DNA of 64,000 nucleotides. Origin: Clostridia bacterium. GTDB taxonomy: Bacteria > Bacillota > DTU025. The position numbers and the translations under genes are program-made. This document shows, one piece after another, positions 2,671 to 43,630 of this stretch (the first letter of the stretch is position 1; the number at the start of each line of letters is the position of its first letter). The DNA lies in NCBI GenBank assembly GCA_034926675.1, contig JAYFQW010000010.1:1-64000 (forward strand). The letters run 5' to 3'. Under the pieces are notes generated by a model. That model was not told where the DNA came from. It searched no databases and was given only the letters and a program-made list of their open reading frames with translations.

Positions 2671-5280
2671 CTACTTGGATCCCGAGCCGATCAGCACTGC
2701 GATCAGCGCAGCAGCAGCGGCCAATCCGATCCAGAGCCCTGCTGAACCGCCCTTAGCAGCGGCGGCGTCCGCTTCGGCCTTCAGCCCCTCAAGCCTGCCT
2801 ACTCGACCTTCCAGCTCTTCGATACGGGATTGCAGCTTGATCTCACGTGCCTCTGCTTCCCATCTCTCGGCCACAAGGTCATCGGCGAACCTCTTCTTCA
2901 GTTCGTCCACACTGCCTTGCATCATCCGTTCCATGCTAGCGAGGCGCTCATCGATGGAGGCTATTCTGGTGTTGATGCTCTGAATCGATGCCTGCGCCTC
3001 GGAAAGCGAGAGTGATGTGCGGTTAAGCGAATCGCGGGTCTTCCCAAGGAGATCAGCTGCGTCGCGGATCAGCATTGCGTTCTCGATCACCTTGGCGCTG
3101 GTCTTCAATGCCTCCGCTTCGTTCTTCACGATCCTATCGGTGATGGACTTGGCGGTCTGGTCTAGGGACGCGGACAGCTCCGACAGCGCTGCACGCTGCT
3201 CAGAGTAATCCTTGCTAGTCCTGTCCGACATAGCTGCCAGGTCCGCTTCCACGCGAGCCGTGTAGGCGCGAAGGTCCTCGATGCTCTTGCGAATGGAGAC
3301 GAGGTCGGCGTTAACCGCATCGATGCGCACGCTCTCCGCCTGCAGCGTGGAGATGATTGCAGCATCTGCCAGCGCCGCCTTCTGGTCGAGGTCTGCCATC
3401 TTGGTTCCTGCAGAAGCCAAATCCTCGCGCAGCTTCTTCATCTCATCGAGGCGCGCCTGCTCCTCAAGGCCGATCCTTGACGCCAGAGAATCGGATGTGG
3501 CTGCAAGGGCCTTCGATCCTTCAGAAGCAACTGCGCCCATCTCGGCCCGAAGTGCACTGGCCATGGAAGCTGCCTCCGAGGCTAGCCTTGCGTCTCCGGC
3601 TTCTCTCGCCTGGCGCTCCGCGTTGGTGGAATCTGCGATCTTCGCAGACAGATCCCCTGTGGAGGCGGTGATCGCCTCGTACAGCTCCCCATCCCGCTTC
3701 GCGAGGGCTTCGTATTTGCTGTCCAAACTGAGGCCTAGAGCAGCGATTTCGGCGCCAATCTTCGAAGCCAATGCTCCATCCTCCTTGGCACGGGCCTGCT
3801 GCTCCGAGCTTACCGCGGCCATCGCGTCGGCAACGGCCTTACCAAGGAGCTCATCGCCTGCTTCACGCGCGAGCTTCTCCGCATCGAGCTGCCCTGCTAG
3901 CGCGGCAGAGGCATCGGCTGCTGCCTTCACGTAGGCGTCATACTCGGCCCGGAATCCCGAGAGAGACAGCGAGAGCCTGTCATCCGCCACGCCGCGCTCG
4001 GTTCTCTCTGAGTCGATCGCCGCTGAAAGCGATGCAGCGGTTGAGCTCTTCAGCTCTTCCTGCCCCCGACTGAAGCTCGACGCCCATTGTGCCAGTGCAT
4101 CCTCACGCGCCCTGCGCTCAGCTCCGAGCGCGGTGGTGTAATCGGCGACTGCTTTCGAAATCGCGGCGGATAGCGCCGCGTCGCGATCATCGAGTTCCTT
4201 CGTCATGGCGCTCATCGATAGACTGAGCCCCTTGGCGAGCTCATCATCCTTGGCCATCAGGGCGAGGCGGAGCCCGCCTAGGTCCAGCGAGAGCTTCTCG
4301 TCTCCCGATGCGCGGGCACGAGCTTCATCGTTCAGGCCGGCTTCAGCCCCAGCCTGTGCTGAGGCTATGGTGGAAGACAGCTCGGCCTTAGTCGCTGAGA
4401 GCTGCCCTCTGAGTTGATCAATGTCTTTCGTACATTCCGCACGTTCTGTAGCCAGCCTGGCCAGGAAGGCAGCGTCGAGAGCCGCATCTGCATCCCCTCT
4501 TGCCCTGGTTTCCTCCTGCATGGCCGCCGCAGCCCAAGCCCGCATGGCTTCGATGGACTTCAGTGCCCCATCCAGAGAGAGAGAGAGAGACTCCTGACGG
4601 GCCTGGGTGGAAGCGATCTGGGCTGCAGCCGCATCGATCTGGGATTTGTTGGCTACAACCGACTTCGTCATGTTCGTCAGTTCAGCCGTGACCCGCGAAT
4701 CAAGTTTCAGCCTATCCTGAGCTTCAGCCTTGGCGTCTGCAATAGCAGCAGCGAGCCGCTGGTCAGCCAGGTCCGCAGTCTTCACGATCTCCAGGGACAG
4801 CTGCTTTCGCTGATCTTCCAGTTTCACCGATATCTCGGCGTACTGCCGCGCCACCCTGGCGAGGCTGTCATTGGTGATGGCAATGCCGCTCTTCGCGTCG
4901 GAGGCTGCCTTCTCTATCTCAGCTAGCCGCGCCTGCATCACCGAAAGCTCGTCGCGGAGATTCGTCGATACCTGCCGAACGATCTCCATGTCCTGATCTG
5001 AAAGAGAGGTGCGTCCGGTCTCCGCATCTCGAAGGAACCGCGCAACTACGAAGGCAAGAAGGTACCTGCTTACGGGATCCTCTCCTCTAAACTGGCCGGA
5101 CTCGTACACTCCCATGTAGCCCTTGTTAACAAGCATTGTGACTGCGTCATATGCCCAGTGATCCTTTGGCACGTCGGTGGGCGCAACCGCAGGCGCCGCG
5201 AACGCGGCCGACGCCGCCACGGCAAGGATCAGCACCACGCTTATTGCCGCCGTGCACAGCCGCTTTGGGACCGCTCTCAT
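2671..5280 (-). CDS. SLH-domain long coiled-coil envelope protein (Omp-alpha-like tether)
   Basis: 869 residues. A signal peptide (residues ~1-29, ending AFA) is followed by one SLH domain (~32-85, containing DVPKDHWAYDAVTMLVNKGY). Then comes a ~740-residue alanine-rich coiled coil with recurring AREAGD/ARASGD-type motifs, and finally a hydrophobic segment (WIGLAAAAALIAVLIG) at the extreme C-terminus. SLH domains bind secondary polymers of peptidoglycan. SLH plus rod plus C-terminal membrane anchor is the layout of Thermotoga Omp-alpha, which links wall and outer membrane. The start chosen is the ATG with AGGAGGGG 5 nt upstream, not the longer frame. It is last in the exbB operon. The role as a spacer or tether is inference. 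Confidence 0.8.
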   Translation of the reverse strand: MRAVPKRLCTAAISVVLILAVAASAAFAAPAVAPTDVPKDHWAYDAVTMLVNKGYMGVYESGQFRGEDPVSRYLLAFVVARFLRDAETGRTSLSDQDMEIVRQVSTNLRDELSVMQARLAEIEKAASDAKSGIAITNDSLARVARQYAEISVKLEDQRKQLSLEIVKTADLADQRLAAAIADAKAEAQDRLKLDSRVTAELTNMTKSVVANKSQIDAAAAQIASTQARQESLSLSLDGALKSIEAMRAWAAAAMQEETRARGDADAALDAAFLARLATERAECTKDIDQLRGQLSATKAELSSTIASAQAGAEAGLNDEARARASGDEKLSLDLGGLRLALMAKDDELAKGLSLSMSAMTKELDDRDAALSAAISKAVADYTTALGAERRAREDALAQWASSFSRGQEELKSSTAASLSAAIDSERTERGVADDRLSLSLSGFRAEYDAYVKAAADASAALAGQLDAEKLAREAGDELLGKAVADAMAAVSSEQQARAKEDGALASKIGAEIAALGLSLDSKYEALAKRDGELYEAITASTGDLSAKIADSTNAERQAREAGDARLASEAASMASALRAEMGAVASEGSKALAATSDSLASRIGLEEQARLDEMKKLREDLASAGTKMADLDQKAALADAAIISTLQAESVRIDAVNADLVSIRKSIEDLRAYTARVEADLAAMSDRTSKDYSEQRAALSELSASLDQTAKSITDRIVKNEAEALKTSAKVIENAMLIRDAADLLGKTRDSLNRTSLSLSEAQASIQSINTRIASIDERLASMERMMQGSVDELKKRFADDLVAERWEAEAREIKLQSRIEELEGRVGRLEGLKAEADAAAAKGGSAGLWIGLAAAAALIAVLIGSGSK

Positions 5281-5310
5281 GGATACCCCTCCTAAGAACC
5301 GTTTCATATG

Positions 5311-7323
5311 CTAACGTGACACCTGCACCACGCAAGGGTCTGGGACAAGCTTCATCTGTGCGCCCGAACTGCTGCTCACAACCACATTCTCCACCACGAG
5401 GACTGCGTTTCCGAATCCCTTAGCAATGAAGTAAACCCTAGCGGCGCTTCCCCATGCGTTCATCGGCGCCGACAGCGTTCCTCCAACATCGCTCACCAGC
5501 CCCGGCGTGCTCCACGGTTCGCCTTCGGAGAAGCCTCGCACCTCATTGCCGTCAACGAACAGCGACCCGGCAGACACCATTGCGATATCCAGAAGCTTCG
5601 GGTCGTATCGCAGATCGAAGCTGATTGACTGAAGATCCGGGAGGTTAGTGACCATCACCTCCACCGTGACCACACTCCCAGCCGCTGCCTGCGATGGAGT
5701 CGGGGCAAGCCAGATCTTCGGGAGAAGCTCTGGAACTTGCAGGCGGATGCTGCCTGTCGAGTCCTTCAAGCCCGGCGCCTTCGCTGTCGCGCTGATCGTG
5801 TGCGTACCCGGTGCGGGTTCGCCTGAGAGCGTCCACGTTACCTCCTCACTCTCTCTCGCCTCGATGTGCCCTATGAGGAGTTCTCTGGAGTCGCCATTGC
5901 CGAGTGAGAAACCACCTATTGAGTCCATAATGACCCGTACCCAGTAGGCAGTGGATCCGCCGGTGTTCTCCACGTGCAGTCGCGCTCGGACCGGCCAGGG
6001 GAAACGCCTCTCCCCCTGCACGCGGAGGGGATCCTGGGGGATCATGTAGGCGAGCAGGCTCGGCGGCCCAACCACTTCGATCTCTCTGGATGCACGGTTG
6101 GAGTCGGCGTTGCTCGCAGACACCTGCACCACCAGAGATGATCGGCCTACGCCGCCCCAATCGGCTACAACCTGCCACGCTGCCTGTGATACCTGCCCGG
6201 GCTCCATGTCGCCAATGGTTCGCGACTGCTTCTGCCCTTCGGCCAGAGTGAACCCGAGAGGGAGCACAATGCTCGTCTCTACGTCGTGAGCAGGCCCTTC
6301 TCCAGTATTGTGGATGTATGCGACAGCGAGGAATGAACCTACCCCCGAGGGCGCAAGCCCCACTTCTGCAGGGGAGGTGAGCCCAAGAGCCAGCCTGCCC
6401 GGGGCGAGCGTAATGGCGCCCAATCCGTAGTATGTAACGTAATGGCGCACCTCACCTGGCGCCAGGAACGCCGGATCCCAGTACATCGCGGCTGCGGAAT
6501 CCAGGTCGGCCTCGAGTTCTCGCTTGAAGGGCTTCCCCGCTTCCATCTGAGCATCCCACAGCCTGTCAGCGTAGTTGCCCCAGTTCGAGAAGGACACCCT
6601 CGAAGGCGGTGTGAGCTCCCCGCCTATCATCGTCGCCTGTGACGTGATGGAGGGGTCCACAATGGAATCAAAGGCCTGCCAGTAATCGGGGATCTCGGAT
6701 CCAGACAGGATGGTGTCGGTGATGATCGCCGATTCTCCTGCACGAAGCGGCGCACCGTCATTCGCCCCAAGCATGGTGTCGAGGAGCACGCGCAGTCCGA
6801 CGCTGCGGGTCATGTTCCCCACATTCTCGACCGTGTAGTGGACACGGGCGGTGTCGGCATACCTTGTCGTGGGGCTCTTGACGAAGGACAATTCCTGGGT
6901 GACCAGGATGTCTCCTAGCCGATAGGAGCAAACGATCTTGTCGCCTGAGGCCTTCGGAGCCTCCACCGCCTCTCCATACCTACCGGCCCTGCCGGCCCTG
7001 CGGGTGGTCTTGCCGCCGAACACCCAATCCGTATCATCGATCTTCACGGTGGTGTACGAAGTCCATGGCGTCGGTCTGCCATATATGAGCGGCAGCCCAT
7101 CGTCGCCAGAGTTCCGCGGGTCTCCGCCTGTCGTCTCCACCCCGAATCTGCCCGCCTCGTTTGGGCCGGAGTTCACGATTATCTTGATGAACTGGTTCTG
7201 CACTGCAATTGGAGCGGCAGGAGCTTCGCTTGCCGCCGCACAGTGGCTACACGATAGAGAGAGAAACACCATGGCCAGCGCAGTGAACGTCGCCGCCAGC
7301 CATGTTCTCCAGGATAACCGCAT
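5311..7323 (-). CDS. Secreted cohesin-domain protein
   Basis: 670 residues with a signal peptide (about 1-31, ending CAAAS). A large N-terminal region of unknown fold (~35-320) is followed by two CARDB/DUF11-like segments (~325-530; motifs YIHNTGEGPAHDV and HVENTGGSTAYW). The C-terminal ~125 residues resemble a cohesin/bacterial Ig-like module (VTVEVMVTNLPDLQSISFDL then YDPKLLDI). Cohesins bind dockerins in cellulosomes, but no dockerin is visible here, so the module may simply be an adhesive surface domain. The gene overlaps nothing and lies 30 bp before the SLH gene and 23 bp after tonB, so it should be co-expressed with the ExbBD-TonB energiser. I see no catalytic motif. Confidence 0.65.
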   Translation of the reverse strand: MRLSWRTWLAATFTALAMVFLSLSCSHCAAASEAPAAPIAVQNQFIKIIVNSGPNEAGRFGVETTGGDPRNSGDDGLPLIYGRPTPWTSYTTVKIDDTDWVFGGKTTRRAGRAGRYGEAVEAPKASGDKIVCSYRLGDILVTQELSFVKSPTTRYADTARVHYTVENVGNMTRSVGLRVLLDTMLGANDGAPLRAGESAIITDTILSGSEIPDYWQAFDSIVDPSITSQATMIGGELTPPSRVSFSNWGNYADRLWDAQMEAGKPFKRELEADLDSAAAMYWDPAFLAPGEVRHYVTYYGLGAITLAPGRLALGLTSPAEVGLAPSGVGSFLAVAYIHNTGEGPAHDVETSIVLPLGFTLAEGQKQSRTIGDMEPGQVSQAAWQVVADWGGVGRSSLVVQVSASNADSNRASREIEVVGPPSLLAYMIPQDPLRVQGERRFPWPVRARLHVENTGGSTAYWVRVIMDSIGGFSLGNGDSRELLIGHIEARESEEVTWTLSGEPAPGTHTISATAKAPGLKDSTGSIRLQVPELLPKIWLAPTPSQAAAGSVVTVEVMVTNLPDLQSISFDLRYDPKLLDIAMVSAGSLFVDGNEVRGFSEGEPWSTPGLVSDVGGTLSAPMNAWGSAARVYFIAKGFGNAVLVVENVVVSSSSGAQMKLVPDPCVVQVSR

Positions 7324-7346
7324 TGTCGCAGGCACCTCCCCACACA

Positions 7347-8321
7347 TCAACCCTGGGGCTGATAAGAAGCGCGTTCGCTCTTCACCATCACGTCTCCGGT
7401 CCAGCCATCATAGCCGACACGCACGTCTAAGTAGTAGGCGTCTGCTCTCCCGGGCGTATTGTCCTCCCTGAATGACCAGCTGTTCACGGCCTTCAGGATG
7501 TACGACTCCATTTCCGAATTCGATGGACGCTTCAGGAATACGACCTGATCAACCGAACCGTCGGCTTTCACCCGAATTCGCACTACTGCCTCGCCCTGAC
7601 CCCTGATGTTAGCCACACTCTTTGGTATCCACACCCCGTGATCCTGCGGCCCGCCAGTGGAAATGATCATCGCGGCGCCCGTAGCATCGCCCGCAGGGTA
7701 ATCTGGCGAAGGGGGAGCAGGATGAACTGCAGCATCCACCTTCGCGGTTCCTGACCCTGGCGCGTCTCCCGACTTGTCTGACCCCTCTGGGGCCTTGGGC
7801 ACAGTCGTCACATCTGTGCTCGGCCGCGGTTCCGGTCCCGGCTTAGCTGCCATCTTCGCCTCAGGAGGAGTGGGAGGAGGCGCCACGTAGTTGCTCGATG
7901 CGCCTGTGAGCACGTCTGGGATCTGCGGTGTCGGCTCAGGGGTGCGGTCGGGAGGCGGCGTTGCCTGCCTCGGCTCCGATGTTTCCAGAGAAGGCTCGGC
8001 AGAAGGCTTCTTAGGCTCTGCGGCCTTTGCTTGCACGGGTTTCGCTGGTTCCGATTTCGGGTCTGGCGCCGTTCGCGGCGCAGTTGCCTTCGGGCCAAGC
8101 TTCTCAGCGGGCAGTTCGCGGACGTCCACGCCGTCAGGCACTGCGGCAACGGCCGGCTTGCCTTCAATGGTCGCTATCTCCACCACACCGGGCACGTCCA
8201 GCGGGATGTAATCGATCACCGGGGGTTCAGTGTACGGTATGAGAATCAGTATTGCGAGATGGACTGCAACCGATATGAGCAGGCTTCCGAGGTTCCCGCG
8301 TCCCTCTCGGCCATCTCTCAT
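7347..8321 (-). CDS. tonB: TonB-family energy transducer
   Basis: 324 residues. A short cytoplasmic start is followed by one membrane segment (~12-30, LLISVAVHLAILILIPY). Then comes a Pro/Ala/Lys/Glu-rich periplasm-spanning linker (~75-215) and a TonB C-terminal domain (~235-310) with VVRIRVKADGSVDQVVFLKR and AVNSWSF. TonB carries inner-membrane proton-motive force, gathered by ExbBD, to outer-membrane receptors or envelope machines. Its ATG overlaps the exbD stop (ATGA). No TonB-dependent receptor is in the window, so its client is unknown; the two secreted proteins downstream are candidates. Confidence 0.85.
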   Translation of the reverse strand: MRDGREGRGNLGSLLISVAVHLAILILIPYTEPPVIDYIPLDVPGVVEIATIEGKPAVAAVPDGVDVRELPAEKLGPKATAPRTAPDPKSEPAKPVQAKAAEPKKPSAEPSLETSEPRQATPPPDRTPEPTPQIPDVLTGASSNYVAPPPTPPEAKMAAKPGPEPRPSTDVTTVPKAPEGSDKSGDAPGSGTAKVDAAVHPAPPSPDYPAGDATGAAMIISTGGPQDHGVWIPKSVANIRGQGEAVVRIRVKADGSVDQVVFLKRPSNSEMESYILKAVNSWSFREDNTPGRADAYYLDVRVGYDGWTGDVMVKSERASYQPQG

Positions 8322-8743
8322 TGTCCACCACCGCCAGCCTGCGGTGCGCGCTCCACAGCAAGCGCAAGGTGGGCGCCTCCCGCCTTTCGAATGGCATCGA
8401 TGGTCTGAATGAGCCGTTCGTATCTGACGGATTTGTCCGCTTTGACGATCACAAGCCGATCAGCTTCCGCCCTCAGCCGGGGAACCAGGATCCGCGTCAG
8501 ATCCTCGTCTGACAAGATGCGATCGTCGAAGTAGATGCGCCCCTCGGCATCAACCCCGACCACTAGGTGCTGCTCTCTCAGATCCTTTGCAGTGGCGGCT
8601 CTGGGGAGCTCGAGTGGCATTCCGGCGGTCTCAGTCCGGAATGTGCCAAACACCATGAAGAACAGGACCAAGTAGAACATGATGTCGATCATCGGCAGGA
8701 TCTCGACCCGCAGACGGCGCCCCCTGCGGCTGTTCTCGAACAT
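8318..8743 (-). CDS. exbD: ExbD/TolR-family biopolymer transport protein
   Basis: 141 residues. A basic N-terminus precedes one membrane helix (~18-36) that carries the conserved aspartate in LPMIDIMFYLVLFF, the proton-path residue of the ExbD/TolR family. A periplasmic domain follows (VGVDAEGRIYFDDRILSDED and IVKADKSVRYERLIQTIDAI). It pairs with ExbB to power TonB. The start overlaps the exbB stop and the stop overlaps the tonB start, which points to translational coupling. Confidence 0.92.
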   Translation of the reverse strand: MFENSRRGRRLRVEILPMIDIMFYLVLFFMVFGTFRTETAGMPLELPRAATAKDLREQHLVVGVDAEGRIYFDDRILSDEDLTRILVPRLRAEADRLVIVKADKSVRYERLIQTIDAIRKAGGAHLALAVERAPQAGGGGQ

Positions 8744-9363
8744 CAGTTGGCCCCCCCGTCCGGCCCGGCGGTGATCGAGATGAGCTCGACCACGCGCCTC
8801 TCCATGTCGAGGATTCGATCATCAATCCTAATTGAGAGCCACGTGTACATCGCCATGAGCGGGGCCGCAACGATCAGGCCAGCCGCGGTAGTTATCATCG
8901 CCTCTCCGATTCCCCCTGATAGCTGGGCAGGTGTCGTGAGGTTCGCAAAAGCGGAGAGAACCTGGAAGCTCCTTATTAGCCCGGTTACAGTGCCGAGAAG
9001 TCCTAGAAGAGGCGCCAAAGTGACAAGCCCATCGAGGATGCTCATTCTCCGCTCCATCGCGGAGATCTCCTCTCTGCCAGTAAGCTCCAGAGAGTCCTTG
9101 ATGTACTGCCTCGGCTTGCCGTACGCGGCTATTGCCGTGCGGGCCAGAGCTGCCACTGGGCCTCTGGCGGCCTTGGCCGCCTGCATCGCCTCAACGGCCT
9201 GCCCCTGCGATAGGTGCGCCTTGACGGTGCGCATCAGGGTTTCTGAATTGGCTGGTATGAACACGAGCTGAATAAGCTTGTCGATGGAGACGGCCAGACC
9301 GATCACAGAGCAGAGGATGATCGGGTACATGACCGGTCCACCCATCGATATGTACTTGAGCAT
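8743..9363 (-). CDS. exbB: ExbB/TolQ/MotA-family proton channel protein
   Basis: 206 residues with three predicted membrane helices (~9-33, ~110-135, ~155-180). The family signature is APLLGLLGTVTGLIRSF followed by GGIGEAMITTAAGLIVAAP. It forms the proton channel with ExbD in the inner membrane. It is first in the exbB-exbD-tonB-cohesin-SLH operon, with GGAGG 10 nt before the ATG. The TolQ/TolR pair is an alternative, but a TonB-type protein follows rather than TolA. Confidence 0.92.
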   Translation of the reverse strand: MLKYISMGGPVMYPIILCSVIGLAVSIDKLIQLVFIPANSETLMRTVKAHLSQGQAVEAMQAAKAARGPVAALARTAIAAYGKPRQYIKDSLELTGREEISAMERRMSILDGLVTLAPLLGLLGTVTGLIRSFQVLSAFANLTTPAQLSGGIGEAMITTAAGLIVAAPLMAMYTWLSIRIDDRILDMERRVVELISITAGPDGGAN

Positions 9364-32743: not shown

Positions 32744-35700
32744 CTACTTGCCAATTGGGGCGCCCATTACGACAACTGGGAACTTGTCGTTCGCCACCGG
32801 CGCAGAGAGGGTCGGACGCTGTCCGGGCCTGATCTGCCAGGCGGTTATCAGCATCACTATCTCCGTGTTCTTCGATGTCGTAGTCCGCTTCTTGAAGAAC
32901 TCTCCGAAGATCGGCAAGTCTCCGAGGATAGGCACCTTGGCAAGACTTTGGATCTCATCCCGGTGCACCAGGCCGCCGATGACTGCGGTCTCACCGCTCT
33001 TCACCGATACTACCGTCTCAAGCTCTCGAGTGCGTATCTGCGGGTAGTTCTGGGGAGTCCAACCCACGATTGAGCTTATCACAGGCTTCACCGTGGTCGT
33101 GATCATGCCGTCGTCGCTCACCTTGGGAGTGATGGACAGCTCGATTCCGGCATCGATGAATTGCACTGTGTTGACTGCCTGCCCCTCCTGAACCTCCTGC
33201 ACTATCACGGGGATCCTGTCGCCTATCAGGATCTTTCCCATCTTGCCGTCAACGGTGAACGTGTGTTGGCGGCTGATGAGGGTGGCGGCGCCGGATTCCT
33301 CAAGCGCAGTGAGATTCGTCATGAAATCGAGGCTCACCGACGCCCACTCCCCGAGCGCGTTCTCTCCAAACTTGATGCCAGAGAACGACCAGTCAAGGCC
33401 GAGCTTTTGCGCGGCGTCGACGTTTATCTCCTCGAGCCTCGCCTCTATCAGGACCTGAGGCAGCTCCTGATCAAACGCCTCTATGAGCTGCACCGCCCTG
33501 CCCTGCTCCGATTCGCTCGCTCGCACGATCACTGAAGACGTGCGGGAGTCCGACGTGATGTCGCCCTTGATGAAGCTGGCGAGGCCGCTCTTCACGTCGG
33601 CGGGAACCGCATAGTTCAGCCTATACACCCTCGTAACGACTGGATCGGGCTCAGCGGCATTAACGGACGGAACATCGAGGCTCTTGACCACCGACTCCAC
33701 ATCCGTCATCGCGGCCTCAGGCGCCATGACGATCAGGGATTTTGTCCTGTCATCCGCCTGAACCTTGCCTGACGGCACTACCAGACCAAGGGCGGTGCGA
33801 ATCTCAGACGCAGACGCATGGGCGAGCCTGAACACCCTCATTACATCTGGCGGCGGGGCCGGCAGTTCCGGCGTCGGCGGAGCGGAGACTGAAATGTCGA
33901 GGCTGGCCACAAGTTCGCGCACTCGTGCATGAACAGACGGCGCGGCTTTTACCAGCAGGGTGTTGGTTCTGAGTTCCACCTGCACATCCGCTGCTGGCGC
34001 CAGGAGGCCAACAGCAGCCCTGATGGACTCGGCGGATGCGTTTGCCATGCGGTAGGCCACAACCTCCGCAGGCTCTGGCTGCGCAGGCGGCACGGCAATT
34101 GGCTCAGGCGTAGGCATCGCCACCTCAACATCGAGCTTCCCGATGACCTGCATCGCCTTGGCGAGCTTGGATTGGGTGGTCGCAAACACCAGCGAGTTAG
34201 TGCGCTCATCCACCGTAATGCTATCTCCGGGAATGATAGGCGCCAGAGCCTCACGAACCTTTGCTGCAGGAGCGTACGCAAGCTTGATCACCTGCAAAGC
34301 CTCTGGATCGGCAGCCTGCGCCGGCTGCTGGAGGAGCGCCTCCGGGGCATCCTTGACGGCAGGTTCATGCTCTCCCTGGATTGGCGAGGCCACCTCGACA
34401 TCCAGTTCACGGATTACCATCTTCGCCTGCTCCCTCTGGGCCGAGGTCCCCACGATCACAATGGACCCAGTGCGCTCGTCGATGCTCAGTTTGGATGCTG
34501 GCATGGTGGGCGCCAGGGCCTCCCTCACCCTCGCCGGCTGAGCATAGGATAGCTTCACAACCTCGGCGATCTCAGGCTCTGGCTCACGTGGAGTTGGCGC
34601 AGCCTGCTTCTCCTGAACCTGCAAAGCTGGAATTGGCTCAGGCGCCTTCGGCGCGGCCACGTCGAGAAGAGCCACTATCTCTGCGGCCCGGGCCAGGTCA
34701 TCAGGAACGCCGACCACCAGAACTGAGTTGGTTCTGGCGTCCGCCTGAATAGAGTCAGGCGAAATGACCAGCCCAAGCGCTGATTTCACCGAAACCGGAT
34801 CAGCTTCGGCAAGCCTGAACACGCGGACTGTCCTCACAGGAGACGCGGGAGACGGCACGAGAGACGGCGCAGCGGCCACGGGCTCAGTTTCGGCCAGAGC
34901 CGGTGCATCGACGAATGCCACCATCTCTTTCGCGCGGGAGAGTTCCTCTTCCGTTGCATACACCAGGACGGAGTTCGTCCTGACATCCGCCTGAACGGCA
35001 CCGACCGGAAGCACAAGGGAAAGCGCTTCCTTGACCGCCAGGGCATCCGCATTCACAAGCCGCAGCGCCTGCAGGACCTTCGCAGGCGCGAGAGACTCAG
35101 GCGCGGCAGTCTTCTGCGGCTCAGGCGCAACCTCGGCCTTCATCACGGGCTGCTTCTCCACCGCAGGCACATACGCGTCGAGCTCCGCGATGATCCTCCT
35201 GGCCTGGTCTCTCTGGGACGAGGTTCCCATGATAACTACCGATGAGGTTCGCTCGTCAACTGAGACCTTAGCCAGCGGAAGCATTGGCAAGAGAGCTTCA
35301 CGCACCTTGGAGGGCAGCGCGTAAGCCAGGCGAACCACTTCTGCCGTTTCCGGTTCTGAACTTGGCTTCGCAGACTGGGCCGACTCGGTCTTCTCGAGAG
35401 CCTCCACTGGCGGGGCCTCGATATCCATCGCGGCCACGATCTCGGAAGCCAGCGCCAGCTCATCAGGGGTTCCGAATACCAGAAGCGACCCGGTTTTCTG
35501 ATCGGCCTGCGCCCCATCAGGCGACATCACCAGCGAAAGCGCGCTTCGAACCGAGTTCGGCTCTGCGTAGGCAAGCCGGAATACCCGAAGTGACCTGGCA
35601 GGCGGCGACGCCTGAGGTTCTGCCGGGGCTTTCGCCTCAGCGGACTCCTTCGGCGCCATTGGTATGTCTATCAGGGATACGACTTCCTGGACCCTCGCGA

Positions 35701-36997
35701 TCTCATCGGGAGACGCTCTGAGGATCAGTGAGTTCGTTCTCTGGTCAACACTGACTCTCGTCTGATCCAGAACAATGCTCAGCGCGGTGCGAGCCTTGTC
35801 GGCCTCCGCCCAGGCGAGCCTGATCACCTTCACAGCCTCTGCCGCCGGAGCAGCCTGCGGCTGAGTGACCGTCGCGTCCGCCTCATGCCGCCCAGAGGCT
35901 GCAAAGGCCGCTTCCGCTGTGGGTGCAGAAACACCCACGGCGGCATCAGGCGGCGCTGCGTCCACCTGGGCGATGATCTGCAGCGCTCTCTCCCGTGACG
36001 CCTCGTCCAACAGCATCACAAGGGTGTTCGTTCGCCCGTCAGCCTGCATCTTGTCGCGAGAGACCAATATGGAGAGAAGCCCGGCAACGGCGTCTGCCGG
36101 TGCATACTTGAGCTTCACTACCTCAAGCGACTCGAGGCGCGGAGCGGGGGCCTGTTGTAAAGCGGCTGCCAGTGCCGCCTCTGCCTGCGCCTTCGCGATT
36201 GCCTCCTGGGAATCGAGCTTCTCAGGGACAGGAATGTCGATGGCTGCGATGATCTCAGCTGCCTGTGCCAGCTGTTCTGGACCTGCTACTACAAGAACGG
36301 AATTGGTGCGCACATCGATACCCACAGTGCCCGTTGGAAGCGCCAAACCCAGAGCAGTTTTCGCAGAGGCTGGATCCGAATGCTGGAGCCGGAATACCCT
36401 AAGCGACGGCCTCGCCTCCGGCTTGGGCGCAGGGGCGGGCTCAGCCGGAACGATGGCCTCGGGAGGAGGTCCAACCGGAACGTCGAGCATGGCAATGATC
36501 TGCCGGATACTCTGCATATCAGCCGCGCTTCCGCGGGCGACAATAGAGTTGCTTCTGGCGTCAGGCTGGATCTTCCCTGTGCCCACCGATAGCTCCAGGG
36601 CTGGGACCACATCGGCAGTTTTTGCGTATGTAAGGGCGAACTTTTCAAGCAGGACTTTTTCGAATCCCCCTGCTGCCGCACCGGGCGGCGTAACTATCAG
36701 GCTCGATCCGACGATCCTGTACTCCACGCCAGTCGTGTACGCAACTAGCTTCAAGGCCTCGTCTATGCCCAGGTCCTTCAGGCGGATGGTGAGCGTGCCG
36801 CGGACCGCAGGATCGAGGACGATGTTCATGTTGCCCAGCTCAGCAAGGGCTCGGAACACCTCTGAGATCTCGGCGCCTTTGAGGTCGAGGCTCACTCGGC
36901 CGGCCTGCTCCCCGGCCACAGCCGGAACGGCGAAGATCAGACAAAGCAACAGCACAATCCCGTATATCGCCTGTCGTGCGTATCCGGCCTTTCTCAT
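32744..36997 (-). CDS. pilQ: Giant type IV pilus secretin with ~13 repeated N1 modules (PilQ-like)
   Basis: 1417 residues, about twice a usual PilQ. Signal peptide (~1-28), an STN/N0-like domain (~32-100, DLKGAEISEVFRALAELGNM), then about 13 tandem secretin N1 modules of ~80 residues (110-1181), each with a core such as VFRLAYAEP...V.ALSLVM, a short turn DxRTNSVLV and an alpha helix ending in I..LD, joined by Pro/Ala/Glu linkers. The secretin gate domain is ~1182-1400 with SRQHTFTVDGKMGKILIGDR and VPILGDLPIFGEFF. Secretins form outer-membrane pores for pili. Typical secretins have one to a few N1 modules. It has ATGA overlap with the pilP-like gene and a strong GGAGGTGA. Confidence 0.92.
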   Translation of the reverse strand: MRKAGYARQAIYGIVLLLCLIFAVPAVAGEQAGRVSLDLKGAEISEVFRALAELGNMNIVLDPAVRGTLTIRLKDLGIDEALKLVAYTTGVEYRIVGSSLIVTPPGAAAGGFEKVLLEKFALTYAKTADVVPALELSVGTGKIQPDARSNSIVARGSAADMQSIRQIIAMLDVPVGPPPEAIVPAEPAPAPKPEARPSLRVFRLQHSDPASAKTALGLALPTGTVGIDVRTNSVLVVAGPEQLAQAAEIIAAIDIPVPEKLDSQEAIAKAQAEAALAAALQQAPAPRLESLEVVKLKYAPADAVAGLLSILVSRDKMQADGRTNTLVMLLDEASRERALQIIAQVDAAPPDAAVGVSAPTAEAAFAASGRHEADATVTQPQAAPAAEAVKVIRLAWAEADKARTALSIVLDQTRVSVDQRTNSLILRASPDEIARVQEVVSLIDIPMAPKESAEAKAPAEPQASPPARSLRVFRLAYAEPNSVRSALSLVMSPDGAQADQKTGSLLVFGTPDELALASEIVAAMDIEAPPVEALEKTESAQSAKPSSEPETAEVVRLAYALPSKVREALLPMLPLAKVSVDERTSSVVIMGTSSQRDQARRIIAELDAYVPAVEKQPVMKAEVAPEPQKTAAPESLAPAKVLQALRLVNADALAVKEALSLVLPVGAVQADVRTNSVLVYATEEELSRAKEMVAFVDAPALAETEPVAAAPSLVPSPASPVRTVRVFRLAEADPVSVKSALGLVISPDSIQADARTNSVLVVGVPDDLARAAEIVALLDVAAPKAPEPIPALQVQEKQAAPTPREPEPEIAEVVKLSYAQPARVREALAPTMPASKLSIDERTGSIVIVGTSAQREQAKMVIRELDVEVASPIQGEHEPAVKDAPEALLQQPAQAADPEALQVIKLAYAPAAKVREALAPIIPGDSITVDERTNSLVFATTQSKLAKAMQVIGKLDVEVAMPTPEPIAVPPAQPEPAEVVAYRMANASAESIRAAVGLLAPAADVQVELRTNTLLVKAAPSVHARVRELVASLDISVSAPPTPELPAPPPDVMRVFRLAHASASEIRTALGLVVPSGKVQADDRTKSLIVMAPEAAMTDVESVVKSLDVPSVNAAEPDPVVTRVYRLNYAVPADVKSGLASFIKGDITSDSRTSSVIVRASESEQGRAVQLIEAFDQELPQVLIEARLEEINVDAAQKLGLDWSFSGIKFGENALGEWASVSLDFMTNLTALEESGAATLISRQHTFTVDGKMGKILIGDRIPVIVQEVQEGQAVNTVQFIDAGIELSITPKVSDDGMITTTVKPVISSIVGWTPQNYPQIRTRELETVVSVKSGETAVIGGLVHRDEIQSLAKVPILGDLPIFGEFFKKRTTTSKNTEIVMLITAWQIRPGQRPTLSAPVANDKFPVVVMGAPIGK

Positions 36998-37602
36998 CTG
37001 TGCTCACCTCCGAGTTGGTATCTGAGCTCCTTGCCTAGGAAGCTCACGGTTATGGAGTCATCGGTGATGGATTTGACCACACCGCCATGGTAGGGCGAAT
37101 CGCCAATGCCAAGCATCTGCGTCTGCCCGTCCACAGAAAGCAGTGCTATCTTACGGAAATCGGCGCCGATCACCCCGGTTAGCGTCGCCTGCGGCGGTTC
37201 CGGCTCGGGAGAAGGGGGGGGCGGCGGCGCGGAGGGCTGCTCCGGCTCGAGGACGATCTTCACGGGTTCAGGCGCCAGCGACTGAAACGGATCCCATCGG
37301 CCTGAACCAATAGGAGCGATCTCTTCCTCCGCCCGATTCGATCCCAGCGCGTCGCTTCGCTTGAGGAGCGGCTCGAGCTTCGGAGCAAGCCTTCCCGCAA
37401 TCACAGGCATCGGCTCGGTGGGATTGACGAGGCCAAGCTTGATGGCGCCTCCGTGACTCATGAACCATACGAACCACGTGAGGGCAAGCGCCAGGATCAC
37501 CAGGGATGCGATGGGCATCGCGCCGTATCGCCTCGCCTTTCCCCGCTCCGGCGCCACACCGGCTTCGGGGTCATTTCTTTGCTCCGTTTGGCCCAGATCC
37601 AT
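36994..37602 (-). CDS. pilP: PilP/GspC-like pilus periplasmic linker protein
   Basis: 202 residues. One membrane helix (~33-50, MPIASLVILALALTWFVWFM), a proline-rich stretch encoded by a run of eight C (37214-37221), and a C-terminal HR/PDZ-like domain (TLTGVIGADFRKIALLSVDG, MLGIGDSPYHGGVVKSITDD, VSFLGKELRYQL). This is the architecture of PilP/GspC, which couples the inner-membrane complex to the secretin. The membrane helix rather than a lipobox is GspC-like. Overlaps pilO by 32 nt and pilQ by 4 nt. Confidence 0.75.
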   Translation of the reverse strand: MDLGQTEQRNDPEAGVAPERGKARRYGAMPIASLVILALALTWFVWFMSHGGAIKLGLVNPTEPMPVIAGRLAPKLEPLLKRSDALGSNRAEEEIAPIGSGRWDPFQSLAPEPVKIVLEPEQPSAPPPPPSPEPEPPQATLTGVIGADFRKIALLSVDGQTQMLGIGDSPYHGGVVKSITDDSITVSFLGKELRYQLGGEHR

Positions 37603-38212
37603 CGCCAACCTGATCACCGCCTTTCGCCCGCACGTAGGTAGTCATCTGCACTGTGGCCGATATGAGGCCTTCGGGGCCTTTGGATAGCTTGTCCTGCCAA
37701 GCGACGCCGCTTTCCGGAGACTCGGCCCTTGCGTTCAACGTGAAGCCATTCATGTTGATCACCCTGGGGAGGGCGTCAAGGCCTTCAACGAAGTCGAGAA
37801 TGTCGTTGTACTTCCCCACGATGCTCGCCGTGACCTGGACTTCCACGTACCTGCCTCGCTCCTTGCGTGCGCCCATGGTGATGTCGAGAATAGATGTGCC
37901 GGTCTTCCTAGAGACCGACTCAATGTCCCGGTACAGGTAGTGGATCGCGTCCTCCGATGGAACGAGATTCTCAAAACCTTCAAGCTCCGCGATAGCCGCT
38001 GAGAGCTCCTCCTCCGCTGCAGGCGCCCTTTTCAACTTGGACAGGTTGATAGTGAGCTTCGTGCCCTCATCGGCAAGCTGCGACTTCACCGAATCGTACT
38101 TCGCCGCCTGAGGCGCGAAGACGTAAGTGTAAAGCCCGGCCGCCGCGACCACGCACAGCAGGATGATCAAGAGCTTCTGCTGCTTCGGACTTCCTCCAAT
38201 CGCCAAGGCCAT
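37571..38212 (-). CDS. pilO: Type IV pilus alignment protein PilO
   Basis: 213 residues. Short cytoplasmic tail, one membrane helix (KLLIILLCVVAAAGLYTYVF), a coiled coil, and a ferredoxin-like periplasmic domain (VSRKTGTSILDITMGARKER; YVEVQVTASIVGKYNDILDF, VEGLDALPRVINM). PilO pairs with PilN in the inner-membrane alignment complex. The ATG at 38212 with GGGAGGTG 6 nt upstream replaces the longer frame. Confidence 0.88.
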   Translation of the reverse strand: MALAIGGSPKQQKLLIILLCVVAAAGLYTYVFAPQAAKYDSVKSQLADEGTKLTINLSKLKRAPAAEEELSAAIAELEGFENLVPSEDAIHYLYRDIESVSRKTGTSILDITMGARKERGRYVEVQVTASIVGKYNDILDFVEGLDALPRVINMNGFTLNARAESPESGVAWQDKLSKGPEGLISATVQMTTYVRAKGGDQVGDGSGPNGAKK

Positions 38213-38217
38213 GCGCC

Positions 38218-38763
38218 TCACCTCCCTGGCTCTACCGCGCATTCAACATCAAAAGCGTAGACCCGGGCATCACCTGCCATGGATAGCTTCATCGACCCCA
38301 CCCGAACTCCTGAGAACAACGGGGAGGCCTCCATGGCCAGGGCGGCCCTGGCTACCGACTCCAGCGAAAAGGCAGCAGCATCGACAGCAATGATCCGTTC
38401 AGGGGCAGCTGATAGAGATGACAGCCAGACATCCTGCGGAAGTATGCGCCTGACCTCCCGGAGGACTCTTCCCGACGCAATGCCCTCCGACTTGATCGCA
38501 CGAGCCTCGTCGATGAGAATCTGTATTTCCTTCGAACGCATCTGCACCTTCGTAAGCACGTCCATGTCTTGCTGCATGGAAGCAAGCTGCGCCTGCACCT
38601 GCCTTACTTCCTTCTCCATCTGTACAATGGAGAAGTGCCTGTAGGCGTAGAGGGCCGAGGCGCCGACCACTATCAGCTCAAGAACGACAATAGTGATGAG
38701 CTTCCTCGGCGTGACCCGCGGTCTGGCCTGTTCGCGATGTGGAAGGAGGTTGATCTTGGTCAT
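38218..38763 (-). CDS. pilN: Type IV pilus assembly protein PilN
   Basis: 181 residues. It opens with the family motif TKINLLPHREQ, which docks PilM, followed by one membrane helix (~21-42) and a coiled coil (VQMEKEVRQVQAQLASMQQD), then a periplasmic domain (ILPQDVWLSSLSAAPER). It overlaps pilM by 4 nt and is 5 bp before pilO. Confidence 0.93.
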   Translation of the reverse strand: MTKINLLPHREQARPRVTPRKLITIVVLELIVVGASALYAYRHFSIVQMEKEVRQVQAQLASMQQDMDVLTKVQMRSKEIQILIDEARAIKSEGIASGRVLREVRRILPQDVWLSSLSAAPERIIAVDAAAFSLESVARAALAMEASPLFSGVRVGSMKLSMAGDARVYAFDVECAVEPGR

Positions 38764-39887
38764 GAATCAGCCACCTCCCGAAGGGCAAGTCCGATCCCAA
38801 CGGCTAGCATCGGCCCGAGTGTTGCAAGATCGCCTTTCGACAAGAGCTTCGGACTGATCGCGAGGTTTCGGAGAGCGTCGCCTCTCCAGGTGGCCAGGCC
38901 GAGCTCTGCGGCGAAATACCGGTCGAGCCCCTCAAGCACAGACCCGCCGCCAGTGAGAACCACGCCAGTGACGCCCGCGTCCTGGCTTCTGGCCTCAAGC
39001 TGCAGATCGTGGTAGTCAAGCGACCTTCGCACATCCACCGCGATTGACGATGCCACTTGAAACACCGCATCCACTATCGCTCGGCCCCTATCGTCCGTCA
39101 CGGGGCATTCGGATTCGTCTTCATACAGCCGAGCCTCGTCGATCTTGATCTGTTCGGCCTCATCGAAGCTCACGCCCAACCGCTCCGCTATTGCGGCAGT
39201 GAACGAATTCCCTCCTGTGGGCACGATCCGGGTGAACCTGAGCCTCTCGCCCTCTGCGATCACGATATCGGTGGTGCCCGCTCCAATGTCGATGTATGCC
39301 GTAGCTGCCCGCCCAGCCTTGGCTGAGTCTCCCTTCGGCTCCCAACGCAAGGCCCGCAGCACCGTAAATGGCTGCACATCGATGGCTATGGGACTGAGCC
39401 CTGCGAGTTCGATCGCTTTCACATGCGAATCCACGAGCCTCTTCTGAGAGGCCACGAGCATGACCTCCATATCCGGCGCATTCGGATCGGCCATCCCGTC
39501 GATGATCTCGAAATCCACCACGGCCTCTTCGATCGGGTAGGGGATGTACTTCTGCCCCTCCCACTTCAGAGCCTCGCGAACTTCCTCCGCAGGCATCCGC
39601 GGGAACTTCACGTGCCTAGCGATCACGCCCTGCCCGGCGATGGCCGCAACCACCTGCTCCGACTTGAAGCGCCCAGCGGCAAGCCCGGCCTTGATCGCCT
39701 CAGCCACCAGCTCCGGCTGAGTAATCATGCCATCCTTCACTGCGTTCGCAGGCGTGAGCTGAACCGCCGCGCGGGCAAGCTGAACCGTTCCGGCCTTGCT
39801 TATGAGTTCAACGAGCTTGATCCGGCTCGTGCCTATGTCGAGCCCAACCATGCTCTTGGACTGCTTCGAAAATAGGTTCCATGGCAC
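38760..39887 (-). CDS. pilM: Type IV pilus assembly protein PilM
   Basis: 375 residues, actin-like ATPase fold. Phosphate 1 motif MVGLDIGTSRIKLVEL, GRAATAYIDIGAGTTDIVIA for phosphate 2, and GVVLTGGGSVLEGLDRYFAA for the adenosine motif. PilM sits on the cytoplasmic face and binds the PilN tail. GTG at 39887 with AGGGGGTG 7 nt upstream is chosen. First gene of the pilMNOPQ block. Confidence 0.93.
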   Translation of the reverse strand: MPWNLFSKQSKSMVGLDIGTSRIKLVELISKAGTVQLARAAVQLTPANAVKDGMITQPELVAEAIKAGLAAGRFKSEQVVAAIAGQGVIARHVKFPRMPAEEVREALKWEGQKYIPYPIEEAVVDFEIIDGMADPNAPDMEVMLVASQKRLVDSHVKAIELAGLSPIAIDVQPFTVLRALRWEPKGDSAKAGRAATAYIDIGAGTTDIVIAEGERLRFTRIVPTGGNSFTAAIAERLGVSFDEAEQIKIDEARLYEDESECPVTDDRGRAIVDAVFQVASSIAVDVRRSLDYHDLQLEARSQDAGVTGVVLTGGGSVLEGLDRYFAAELGLATWRGDALRNLAISPKLLSKGDLATLGPMLAVGIGLALREVADS

Positions 39888-39963
39888 CCGCCAGCACCCC
39901 CTAGGAGGAATCCATGCATGGGCATGCATATTACAATATGATTCGCCCTGTTCTGGGGAATTC

Positions 39964-40716
39964 CTACTCCCATCCGAGCAATCTCAATGCGAGATGTCCA
40001 AAGTAGACCGACAGCGCTCCTGCAATCGCCAGGAACGGACCAAACGGCATAGGATCTCGCCGTTTTTGCTTTCCACTGGCAATCCGCGCAATTCCAACAA
40101 TCGCGCCAAACAAAGATCCGGCGAATAGGACCAGAAGCCCCAGCTTCCACCCAAGAAATGCACCGACCATGGCCATGAGCTTCACGTCTCCCCCGCCCAT
40201 CCCACCGCGGCTGGCCGTTCCCACAATCCACACGACCCCGCCGCATACAATAAGGCCGATGAGAGAGAACGCAAACGACGACTGAGGAACGAATAGCGAG
40301 AAGATGAGCCCTGCAGCGATCCCAGGATACGTAATGGAATTCGGGATGAGGCCGGTGTTGATATCGGCAAAACAGGCGACAATCAGAAGTGATATGAACG
40401 CAGACCAGCATAGGCTGGTTATTGTAGGCCCGAAGGCCGCCATCGTCAAAGCAAAAAAGACCCCGGTGATGAGCTCCACCAGGGGATACTGCGGTGATAT
40501 GCGAGCGGAGCAGTAACGGCATCTGCCGCGCAGGGCGACGTAACTTGCCACCGGAACCAGATCCCGCGGCTTGAGCGCGGCCCCGCACGCGGGGCAAGCC
40601 GATCCAGGCCAGGCGATGGATTTACGTCCCGGGAGGCGGCAGATGCAGACGTTCAGGAAACTGCCGACGAGGAGGCCGAGCACAAACGCGAAGGATTCAG
40701 ATAGCAACAGCAACAC
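39964..40716 (-). CDS. pilD: Prepilin peptidase/N-methyltransferase PilD
   Basis: About 250 residues with 7-8 membrane helices. The N-terminal methyltransferase domain has FAFVLGLLVGSFLNVCICRL and a zinc ribbon with two CxxC pairs (CPACG, CRYCS). Catalytic aspartates lie in FADINTGLIPNSITYPG and GGMGGGDVKLMAMVGAFLGW. It cleaves and methylates prepilins such as PilA next door. The start is uncertain: GTG at 40716 or a TTG at 40785 right behind a hairpin; neither has a strong ribosome-binding site. Confidence 0.9.
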   Translation of the reverse strand: MLLLLSESFAFVLGLLVGSFLNVCICRLPGRKSIAWPGSACPACGAALKPRDLVPVASYVALRGRCRYCSARISPQYPLVELITGVFFALTMAAFGPTITSLCWSAFISLLIVACFADINTGLIPNSITYPGIAAGLIFSLFVPQSSFAFSLIGLIVCGGVVWIVGTASRGGMGGGDVKLMAMVGAFLGWKLGLLVLFAGSLFGAIVGIARIASGKQKRRDPMPFGPFLAIAGALSVYFGHLALRLLGWE

Positions 40717-40786
40717 CCTTTGCTGGATTCGCTTCGGAAAACGCACGACAACACGCAGCAGAGACAGCTCGTCCACCTGCTGCAAA

Positions 40787-40853: not shown

Positions 40854-41207
40854 CTAGTTGTTGTGGGGGTGCTTAGCACTAGCGCAGCTGACGACGCCTC
40901 CCGCGAGAGTATAGACGGTCGTTTTGTCGGCCGGGCACGTCGTCAATGAGTCAATGTTCTCAATGTACGGATTGCCATCTCGGTCTGCCAGAGTAGCGGG
41001 CAGCAGATTCGCGGGGTACTCTCCGTACTCAGCATAATACATGCTGACAGCCGTCTGGACAGTACGTAGGTTCGCATCACAGGCAGCCTCGCGTGCCTTG
41101 TCGGTCATGCCCTTGTACGCGGGCACTCCAACTGCAGCCAGCACCCCGATTATCACGATGACGATCATCAGCTCCATCAGCGTGAAGCCCTTCTCGTTCT
41201 TTATCAT
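40854..41207 (-). CDS. pilA: Type IV major pilin-like protein
   Basis: 117 residues. Leader MIKNEKG is followed by the mature start FTLMELMIVIVIIGVLAAVG with Glu5, so PilD should cut after Gly7. A short globular domain has two cysteines (CPADK... VSC) that may form the D-loop disulfide. It is the only pilin seen in the window. A very strong GGAAGGAGGTGA precedes the ATG, in keeping with high expression, and a hairpin lies in the gap to pilC (41266-41283). Confidence 0.95.
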   Translation of the reverse strand: MIKNEKGFTLMELMIVIVIIGVLAAVGVPAYKGMTDKAREAACDANLRTVQTAVSMYYAEYGEYPANLLPATLADRDGNPYIENIDSLTTCPADKTTVYTLAGGVVSCASAKHPHNN

Positions 41208-42559: not shown

Positions 42560-43630
42560 CTACATCATCCGCGCCGGATCCGCAAGCCTCCGGAATTCCT
42601 CGGGGTCAGACGCATGCACCAGGGCTTCATCACGGGTTATCAGGCCACGCGCAACCATGTCGCGAAGGGCCATGTCCAGGCTTTGCATCCCGAACTTGGC
42701 GCCAGTTTGCAGCACCGAGTATATCTGATGGGTCTTCCCTTCTCGGATCAGGTTGCGGACTGCCGGCGTGGCGACCAGGACCTCGACTGCGATGACCCTG
42801 CCAGTGCCGTCTGCCCTCGGCATTAATGTTTGCGATGCGACCCCCTGAAGCACCGACGCCAACTGGATCCTGACCTGCTGCTGCTGGTGCGGGGGGAACT
42901 GGTCGATCACCCTGTCTACAGTCTGCACAGTGTCGTTGGTGTGCAGAGTCGCGAAAACCAGGTGCCCAGTCTCAGCAGCAGTCAACGCGATAGACGTTGT
43001 CTCCAGGTCGCGCATCTCGCCTACGAGTATGACATCCGGGTCCTCCCGAAGCGCAGAGCGGAGAGCAGCCGCGAACGATCTCGTATCCGAACCCACCTCA
43101 CGCTGGTTGATCATGCTCTTGTTGTGCTTATGCAGGTACTCGATCGGGTCCTCCAGCGTGATGATGTGGCACTGCCTTTCGTTGTTGATGATGTCAATCA
43201 GCGATGCGAGAGTAGTGGATTTCCCGCTTCCAGTAGGGCCGGTCACCAGCACCATTCCCCGAGGCTTGTCCGCAAATGTGCGGACCACGGCCGGAAGGCC
43301 AAGCTCATCGAGGGAGCGAATCTTCGTTGGGATCACACGTGCAGCAGCTCCGATGGATCCTCGCTGAGTGTAGGCATTCACCCTGAACCTGGCCACTTTG
43401 GGCATGCCGTAGGAGAAGTCGACCTCTCCTAGTGTATCGAAGGTCTCCCTGACTTTGGGGTTCATCATCGCGAGCACCATTTCCGCGCTGTCCGCCGGCA
43501 GTAACTTTGGCCTGCCGGCCAGGGGTTTCAGTATCCCCATCACCCGCACCATGGGAGGCAATCCCACCGTTATGTGCAGATCAGAAGCTCCTAGGTTGAC
43601 CGCCTCAAGGAGCAGTTCGTCGATGGTCAC
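42560..43630 (-). CDS. pilT: Pilus retraction ATPase PilT
   Basis: 356 residues. Walker A VLVTGPTGSGKSTTLASLID, His box and Asp box ITLEDPIEYLHKHNKSMINQ, Walker B EDPDVILVGEMRDLETTSIA, and AGHLVFATLHTND-type motif (ETGHLVFATLHTND). PilT depolymerises pili to drive twitching. GTG start. It follows pilB across a 155-bp gap with its own -10 element, so separate control is possible. Confidence 0.96.
   Translation of the reverse strand: MTIDELLLEAVNLGASDLHITVGLPPMVRVMGILKPLAGRPKLLPADSAEMVLAMMNPKVRETFDTLGEVDFSYGMPKVARFRVNAYTQRGSIGAAARVIPTKIRSLDELGLPAVVRTFADKPRGMVLVTGPTGSGKSTTLASLIDIINNERQCHIITLEDPIEYLHKHNKSMINQREVGSDTRSFAAALRSALREDPDVILVGEMRDLETTSIALTAAETGHLVFATLHTNDTVQTVDRVIDQFPPHQQQQVRIQLASVLQGVASQTLMPRADGTGRVIAVEVLVATPAVRNLIREGKTHQIYSVLQTGAKFGMQSLDMALRDMVARGLITRDEALVHASDPEEFRRLADPARMM

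Follow-up and report, generated by a model that had tools for sequence, protein, structure and literature searches.

The 64,000-nucleotide stretch analyzed here (the window; positions 1 to 64,000 of contig JAYFQW010000010.1 in assembly GCA_034926675.1, from a Clostridia bacterium in the DTU025 lineage) contains a gene on the reverse strand, at positions 32744-36997, that encodes a type IV pilus secretin, PilQ, of 1417 amino acids. The reading frame starts with ATG and encodes an N0 domain, 13 N1 modules, and the secretin domain. We put at roughly three in four the probability that this N1-duplicated PilQ forms a long stack of rings, which spans an unusually wide periplasm whose width is set by SLH coiled-coil tethers. 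Secretins with 11 to 16 N1 modules are found in the order to which the genome belongs, far more than in the PilQ protein of Thermus thermophilus (five, and N0), the longest described secretin that we found.

Domain architecture of the secretin

The Pfam model Secretin_N matched 13 separate stretches of the 1417-residue open reading frame (412.6 bits, E-value 2e-126), and the secretin domain PF00263, which contains the gate and barrel, matched residues 1231-1386 with 131.6 bits (positions 32840-33307, on the reverse strand like all features of this gene). The N1 modules were preceded by matches to STN and GspD_N0 at residues 37-104, of which the STN score lay just above the cut-off (28.5 versus 28.4 bits), within an N0 domain covering residues 34-108 (36674-36898). 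Among the NCBIfam models, the score for PilQ (TIGR02515) was 332 bits, above its cut-off of 284; the score for GspD (TIGR02517) was 337.9 bits, under its cut-off of 351.35, and the SctC, MshL, and HofQ models were all under their own cut-offs. The gene also closes a pilA-D-M-N-O-P-Q run, in which the genes for PilM, PilN, PilO, and PilP are adjacent to it. As judged from family models and gene order, the protein is PilQ.

A hidden Markov model (HMM) built from the modules recovered exactly 13 N1 modules with 71 to 87 bits each, covering residues 117-1182 (1066 amino acids) with a mean period of 83.8, or about 84, amino acids. The original prediction, made from the sequence and its open reading frames, had proposed about 13 tandem N1 modules of some 80 residues over about 1070 residues, each with a DxRTNS-like turn, and these estimates were borne out; the turn was present in a degenerate form, [DE]x[RQK][TS][NGSK][ST], in all 13 modules. 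Counted from the N0 domain, module 1 is located at 36461-36649 (residues 117-179; 79 bits), module 2 at 36218-36403 (residues 199-260; 86 bits), module 3 at 35942-36127 (residues 291-352; 72 bits), module 4 at 35648-35833 (residues 389-450; 82 bits), module 5 at 35405-35590 (residues 470-531), module 6 at 35159-35341 (residues 553-613), and module 7 at 34889-35074 (residues 642-703; 77 bits). These are followed by module 8 at 34640-34828 (residues 724-786), module 9 at 34382-34564 (residues 812-872), module 10 at 34112-34297 (residues 901-962; recovered by the module HMM and by the predicted fold), module 11 at 33875-34063 (residues 979-1041), module 12 at 33656-33841 (residues 1053-1114), and module 13 at 33452-33631 (residues 1123-1182), which adjoins the gate. 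The linkers between the modules are 6 to 35 amino acids long, sum to 249 amino acids, consist to 65% of proline, alanine, glutamate, and glutamine, and are longer toward the inner-membrane end.

AlphaFold2 monomer models were made of two segments, one covering modules 10 to 13 and the gate, and the other the N0 domain and modules 1 to 4. Every modeled module had the order beta-alpha-beta-beta-alpha, mostly with predicted local distance difference test (pLDDT) values of about 75 to 88, whereas the N0 region, the linkers, and a large part of the gate had low values. The predicted template modeling (pTM) scores of the two segments were 0.47 and 0.25. Foldseek searches against the PDB returned secretins, with that of Deinococcus radiodurans (8co1) first and GspD-type structures next. 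By family HMM, predicted fold, and structure comparison, the modules are N1 domains, as originally proposed, and the same three sources of evidence argue against another fold. Pfam matches to KH and YscD were also obtained, none of which passed on any single stretch alone; they look like fold neighbors.

Long arrays were not confined to the window. Six other genomes of the family and order contained 11 (G001 and G003), 13 (G009 and G011), 16 (G008), and at least 13 (G002) N1 modules, the last count being a lower bound since the gene meets the contig end. Wherever the pilQ gene was complete, genomes of the order had at least 11 modules. Named records for the order include Clostridia bacterium DTU025, Firmicutes UBA5389, and ADurb.Bin153, and the named genomes are draft metagenome assemblies. 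A search for related loci in genome contigs returned only the same metagenome-assembled genomes. The phylum was sampled with 399 genomes, 103 of which contained a secretin, and the pilus-linked PilQ proteins examined outside the order had 1 to 5 N1 modules. Secretins of 700 to 1050 amino acids elsewhere in the phylum were considered as parallels and not counted, most being without N1 matches and without an adjacent PilM.

Pilus span and tether length

The window also encodes an Omp-alpha-like outer-membrane tether of 878 amino acids (2671-5307, reverse strand), with a signal peptide, one SLH domain (29.1 bits), a putative coil of about 740 residues, and a C-terminal transmembrane segment. The coil was delimited by its position between the SLH domain and the transmembrane segment, the complete absence of proline, and its composition, rather than by a dedicated coiled-coil program. 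At 0.1485 nm per residue it would measure about 110 nm if straight. Coils of 501 to 813 amino acids were found across the order, as compared to about 100 in most genomes with one N1 module. BamA was present in G000 (the source genome), G001, G003, G008, G009, G012, and G091, and LptD had no match in any of the same seven genomes; an outer membrane is therefore to be expected, perhaps one without classical lipopolysaccharide.

The original prediction had connected the long secretin to a wide periplasm and to the SLH tether in the same genome. We used the coil of the orthologous SLH rod as a ruler for envelope width and compared it to the pilus span, defined as PilQ plus accessory rings plus the PilP linker. 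Spans were measured between domain matches because open reading frames were taken from stop to stop, which makes some N-termini too long. The linker was fixed at 80 amino acids for genomes with accessory rings and for G002 and G208, and the missing N0 domain of G002 was set to about 90 amino acids. Genome G197, in which pilQ has an uncertain start and overlaps with the gene for the accessory protein, was excluded from the regression.

Coil length correlated with the number of N1 modules in the pilus-linked PilQ alone in 28 genomes (rho 0.74), with 4 outliers that combined long rods with few N1 modules. Two of these, G012 and G078, encoded a PilP protein with a disordered linker of about 233 to 235 amino acids. 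The other two, G332 and G110, as well as G197, had an additional gene between pilO and pilQ, the product of which has N0 and N1 domains, no gate, and an HR-like end, and their PilO proteins also had an HR-like C-terminus; the HR assignments are based on sequence likeness and weak PilP and T2SSC matches with E-values of about 0.02 to 0.1. For the total span, the correlation with coil length was 0.94 in the 28 genomes, 0.87 in the 21 genomes outside the order, and 0.88 with one data point per family (n = 14).

A prediction for held-out genomes was then written before 20 unused operons were analyzed, 16 of which had the needed genes; the approximate coil lengths were already known from the sizes of the open reading frames, but the pilus operons were not. 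The Spearman correlation for these genomes was 0.89 (p = 4e-6, n = 16), and that for the pooled 44 genomes was also 0.89, or 0.87 for the 17 families. Independent contrasts on a quick tree of the PilQ core gave r = 0.80 (p = 5e-11), and there were too few independent pairs for a sign test. The connection with the tether thereby passed its test. The 4 held-out genomes with coils of 90 to 103 amino acids all had short pilus spans. A coil of 643 amino acids in G091 was accompanied by a 638-residue frame in the PilP position with a low-complexity linker of about 481 amino acids (L293:2845-4758, forward strand). Family f51 had coils of 233 to 284 and PilP linkers of 198 to 300 amino acids, with the exception of G258, which had an extra ring protein instead. 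Extra ring proteins were also present in G144 and G245, with coils of 313 amino acids and PilQ proteins with the order N0-N1-N0-N1.

Gateless proteins with N0/STN and Secretin_N matches and an HR-like end, each encoded between pilO and pilQ, were identified at L213:3162-4376 and L197:2374-3300 on the reverse strand, and at L188:5860-7251, L290:2866-3831, L291:2815-3753, and L292:2797-3762 on the forward strand. They are likely to be stand-alone stackable rings, which suggests that secretin rings can also come as separate parts. We consider it fairly probable that, in diderm Bacillota, the pilus machine and the outer-membrane tethers co-evolve in their periplasmic lengths, and that the machine has been lengthened by at least three interchangeable routes. 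These would be duplication of N1 rings in PilQ (the order examined here), a long disordered linker in PilP (for example, in G012, G078, most of f51, and G091), and a separate N0-N1 ring protein (G332, G110, G144, G245, G258, and G197), which, with its HR-like adaptor, is apparently stacked under PilQ. If so, envelope width could be estimated for uncultured diderm Bacillota from sequence alone, and the lengths suggest how a trans-envelope machine adapts to a changed gap between the membranes.

In the mechanism that we favor, the periplasmic part of PilQ has been lengthened by tandem N1 duplication in a diderm, spore-gene-bearing member of the Bacillota. The 13 N1 modules and the N0 domain would most likely stack as a long series of rings on the secretin pore, bringing N0 down to a PilMNOP platform of ordinary size at the inner membrane, where N0 would dock to PilP. 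The pilus would be guided through this tube across an unusually wide periplasm, a gap that would be determined by SLH coiled-coil tethers exceeding the usual length several-fold. The concrete prediction from the lengths is an envelope about 75 to 130 nm wide.

Several observations qualify this mechanism or weigh against it. Outside the order, the number of N1 modules alone was a weak predictor of coil length (rho 0.38, n = 21), since the extra length in other lineages comes from a longer PilP or a separate ring protein; within the order the correlation was not significant (rho 0.30, n = 7). The term for the PilP linker was added after the outliers had been seen, although it later passed the held-out test. 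The arrangement between domains in the structural models is unreliable (pTM 0.25 to 0.47), and the envelope width is an estimate from sequence lengths. Finally, 14 rings of 2.5 to 5 nm each, a range of our own in which the value of about 5 is taken from Thermus, plus a gate of about 10 nm, would give 45 to 80 nm, which is less than the straight tether of 110 nm. To account for the difference, the linkers would have to stretch, the rod to be tilted, or some of the array to be flexible.

Flexibility is the core of an alternative to which we assign a low but not negligible probability, namely that only the last 1 to 3 modules stack and that the rest are beads on flexible linkers rich in proline, alanine, and glutamate, serving as parallel tethers between pore and platform over a variable gap. 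The length and composition of the linkers, which may leave some of the array flexible, and their increase toward the inner membrane agree with such an arrangement, and the disordered PilP linkers that bridge the same gap elsewhere indicate that a rigid tube is not required. However, the gap could be bridged at less cost by a plain disordered linker than by 13 folded domains, the N0 to N5 domains of the Thermus protein do stack as rings, and the linkers of L037 and L038 in the order are uniformly short (6 to 14 amino acids), consistent with stacking. These two loci, with the smallest linker sum (103 amino acids), also come from the genomes with the shortest rods (501 to 512 amino acids), a post hoc observation from few points. 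A ring stack is thus the reading that we prefer, with a continuous rigid tube as its presumed form.

As a possible second length ruler, we noted OmpM-type SLH porins of 1100 to 1330 amino acids in the order (L129, on contig C81 of the source genome, L140 to L142, and L273 to L276), as compared to about 570 to 800 in many diderm relatives. Dividing these porins into coil and barrel by their aromatic content gave unstable results, and this ruler was dropped.

Duplication history of the array

Modules 5 and 8 were 60% identical in amino acid sequence and modules 6 and 9 were 57% identical, whereas a typical pair was about 33% identical. In a tree of 90 modules, which was based on few columns and contained many weak inner forks, the modules at positions 12 and 13 formed groups with one member per genome across the whole order, and those at position 11 did so across families f1 and f2. 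Support by the SH-aLRT (an approximate likelihood ratio test) was 96 to 99 for the groups of positions 11 to 13, and weaker, 87, for the group of module 1. The array ends are therefore older than the divergence of the families. Modules 4, 6, 7, 8, and 10 of L037 and L038 clustered together, and the window modules 5 and 8, as well as 6 and 9, fell in shared groups, from which it follows that interior modules were duplicated separately in different families. The suggestion that the array grew by duplication of multi-module units was thus correct in substance, since modules 5 and 6 match 8 and 9 and other families have expanded different interior modules, but the submotifs VFRLAxA and VVxLxYA, on which it was based, do not strictly alternate.

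Independent duplication of interior modules in different families, and numbers that vary from 11 to 16, would also be expected if unequal crossing-over had extended the array neutrally, to a length without function. We find this very unlikely: the array ends are conserved in their order, no complete gene has dropped below 11 modules, and pilus span and tether length vary together, both between families and among the held-out genomes. It is still less probable that the role of the extra modules is not length but binding, be it to peptidoglycan, DNA, the pilus, or another partner. The N domains of secretins are known to bind partners, and DNA binding has been reported for PilQ of Neisseria. However, the modules are mostly 20% to 45% identical, we noticed no surface motif common to them apart from the fold and the turn, and binding gives no reason for the relation to tether length or for the replacement by PilP linkers elsewhere.

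A false array from collapsed or expanded repeat reads, a usual source of error that might be suspected in a draft genome of 90 contigs, has next to no likelihood: the DNA copies of the modules are only 62% to 75% alike over 32 nucleotides and at most 60% identical in protein sequence, so that duplicated reads are excluded to the extent that sequence can show it. In addition, no stop interrupts the frame, and the comparison of module numbers across genomes, proposed with the original prediction, yielded long arrays in six other assemblies.

Related systems and neighboring genes

The PilQ protein of T. thermophilus is 757 amino acids long, and its N0 to N5 domains form six stacked rings and a channel of about 35 nm in a periplasm of about 70 nm (PMC5745081, PMC4463427). 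Like the window PilQ, it has an N0 and several beta-alpha-beta-beta-alpha N domains before the gate, in a species with a very wide periplasm, but only five of these are of the N1 type. The original statement that known secretins carry one to a few N1 domains should accordingly be extended to as many as five, in addition to N0. In the open-access library searched, from which most subscription journals are absent, we found no secretin described with more than six N domains; the secretins of Thermotoga may also be long. The PilP counterpart of Thermus, PilW, has 292 amino acids, which makes it about 60% longer than PilP, a difference described as "likely" due to the wider periplasm (PMC13039148). 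This attribution makes it a direct precedent for the PilP-linker route, whereas the window PilP is of ordinary length.

The best structural match of both segments, DR_0774 of D. radiodurans (8co1), comes from another diderm outside the Proteobacteria and, with 740 amino acids, has far fewer N domains as judged by its length. The GspD and XcpQ secretins of type II secretion systems (for example, 5wq7, 6i1x, and 4e9j) have the order N0-N1-N2-N3-gate, with N domains that match those of the window PilQ in sequence and fold, but with three of the N1 type rather than 13. PilQ of G012 (L047), one of the other diderm Bacillota, occupies the same operon position and has a single N1 domain, which scored 76 to 77 bits with the module model of the order; in this genome the gap would be filled by the PilP linker. 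For the tether, Omp-alpha (OmpA1) of Thermotoga maritima has an SLH domain, a coil of 316 amino acids that sets a gap of about 50 nm, and a hydrophobic C-terminus (PMC3387000); it was compared to the window tether by domain plan only, which the two share despite the longer coil of the latter.

The other pilus genes identified in the window are also located on the reverse strand. The gene for the PilP-like protein (36994-37617), identified by position and a weak T2SSC match, encodes a transmembrane segment, a linker of about 80 amino acids, and a C-terminal HR-like domain. It is preceded by pilO (37571-38242; PF04350, 52.8 bits), pilN (38218-38763; PF05137, 38.4 bits), pilM (38760-39929; PF11104, 171.7 bits), the prepilin peptidase gene pilD (39964-40785; PF01478 and PF06750), and a gene for a pilin with an N-methylation motif (40854-41207; PF07963). 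PilP, PilO, and PilN are all ordinary in size. An ATPase of the T2SSE family, of a size like that of PilT, is encoded at 42560-43630 (PF00437, 168 bits). On the 3' side, pilQ is followed by genes for an M24 peptidase and a protein that, from its sequence, resembles elongation factor P, and by spoIIIAA, which makes the host a spore-gene-bearing member of the Bacillota.

The source genome contains three more secretins on contigs C62, C84, and C35 (L041 to L043), with open frames of 421 to 583 amino acids, one N1-like match each, and no PilM nearby. Adjacent to the tether gene region of this Bacillota genome, at 7347-9363 on the reverse strand, are genes for an ExbB-ExbD pair with scores above the Pfam cut-offs and for a TonB-like protein with a weak TonB_C match. 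Between the tether and TonB-like genes is a gene on the same strand (5311-7350) for an exported protein of 679 amino acids with a cohesin-type domain.

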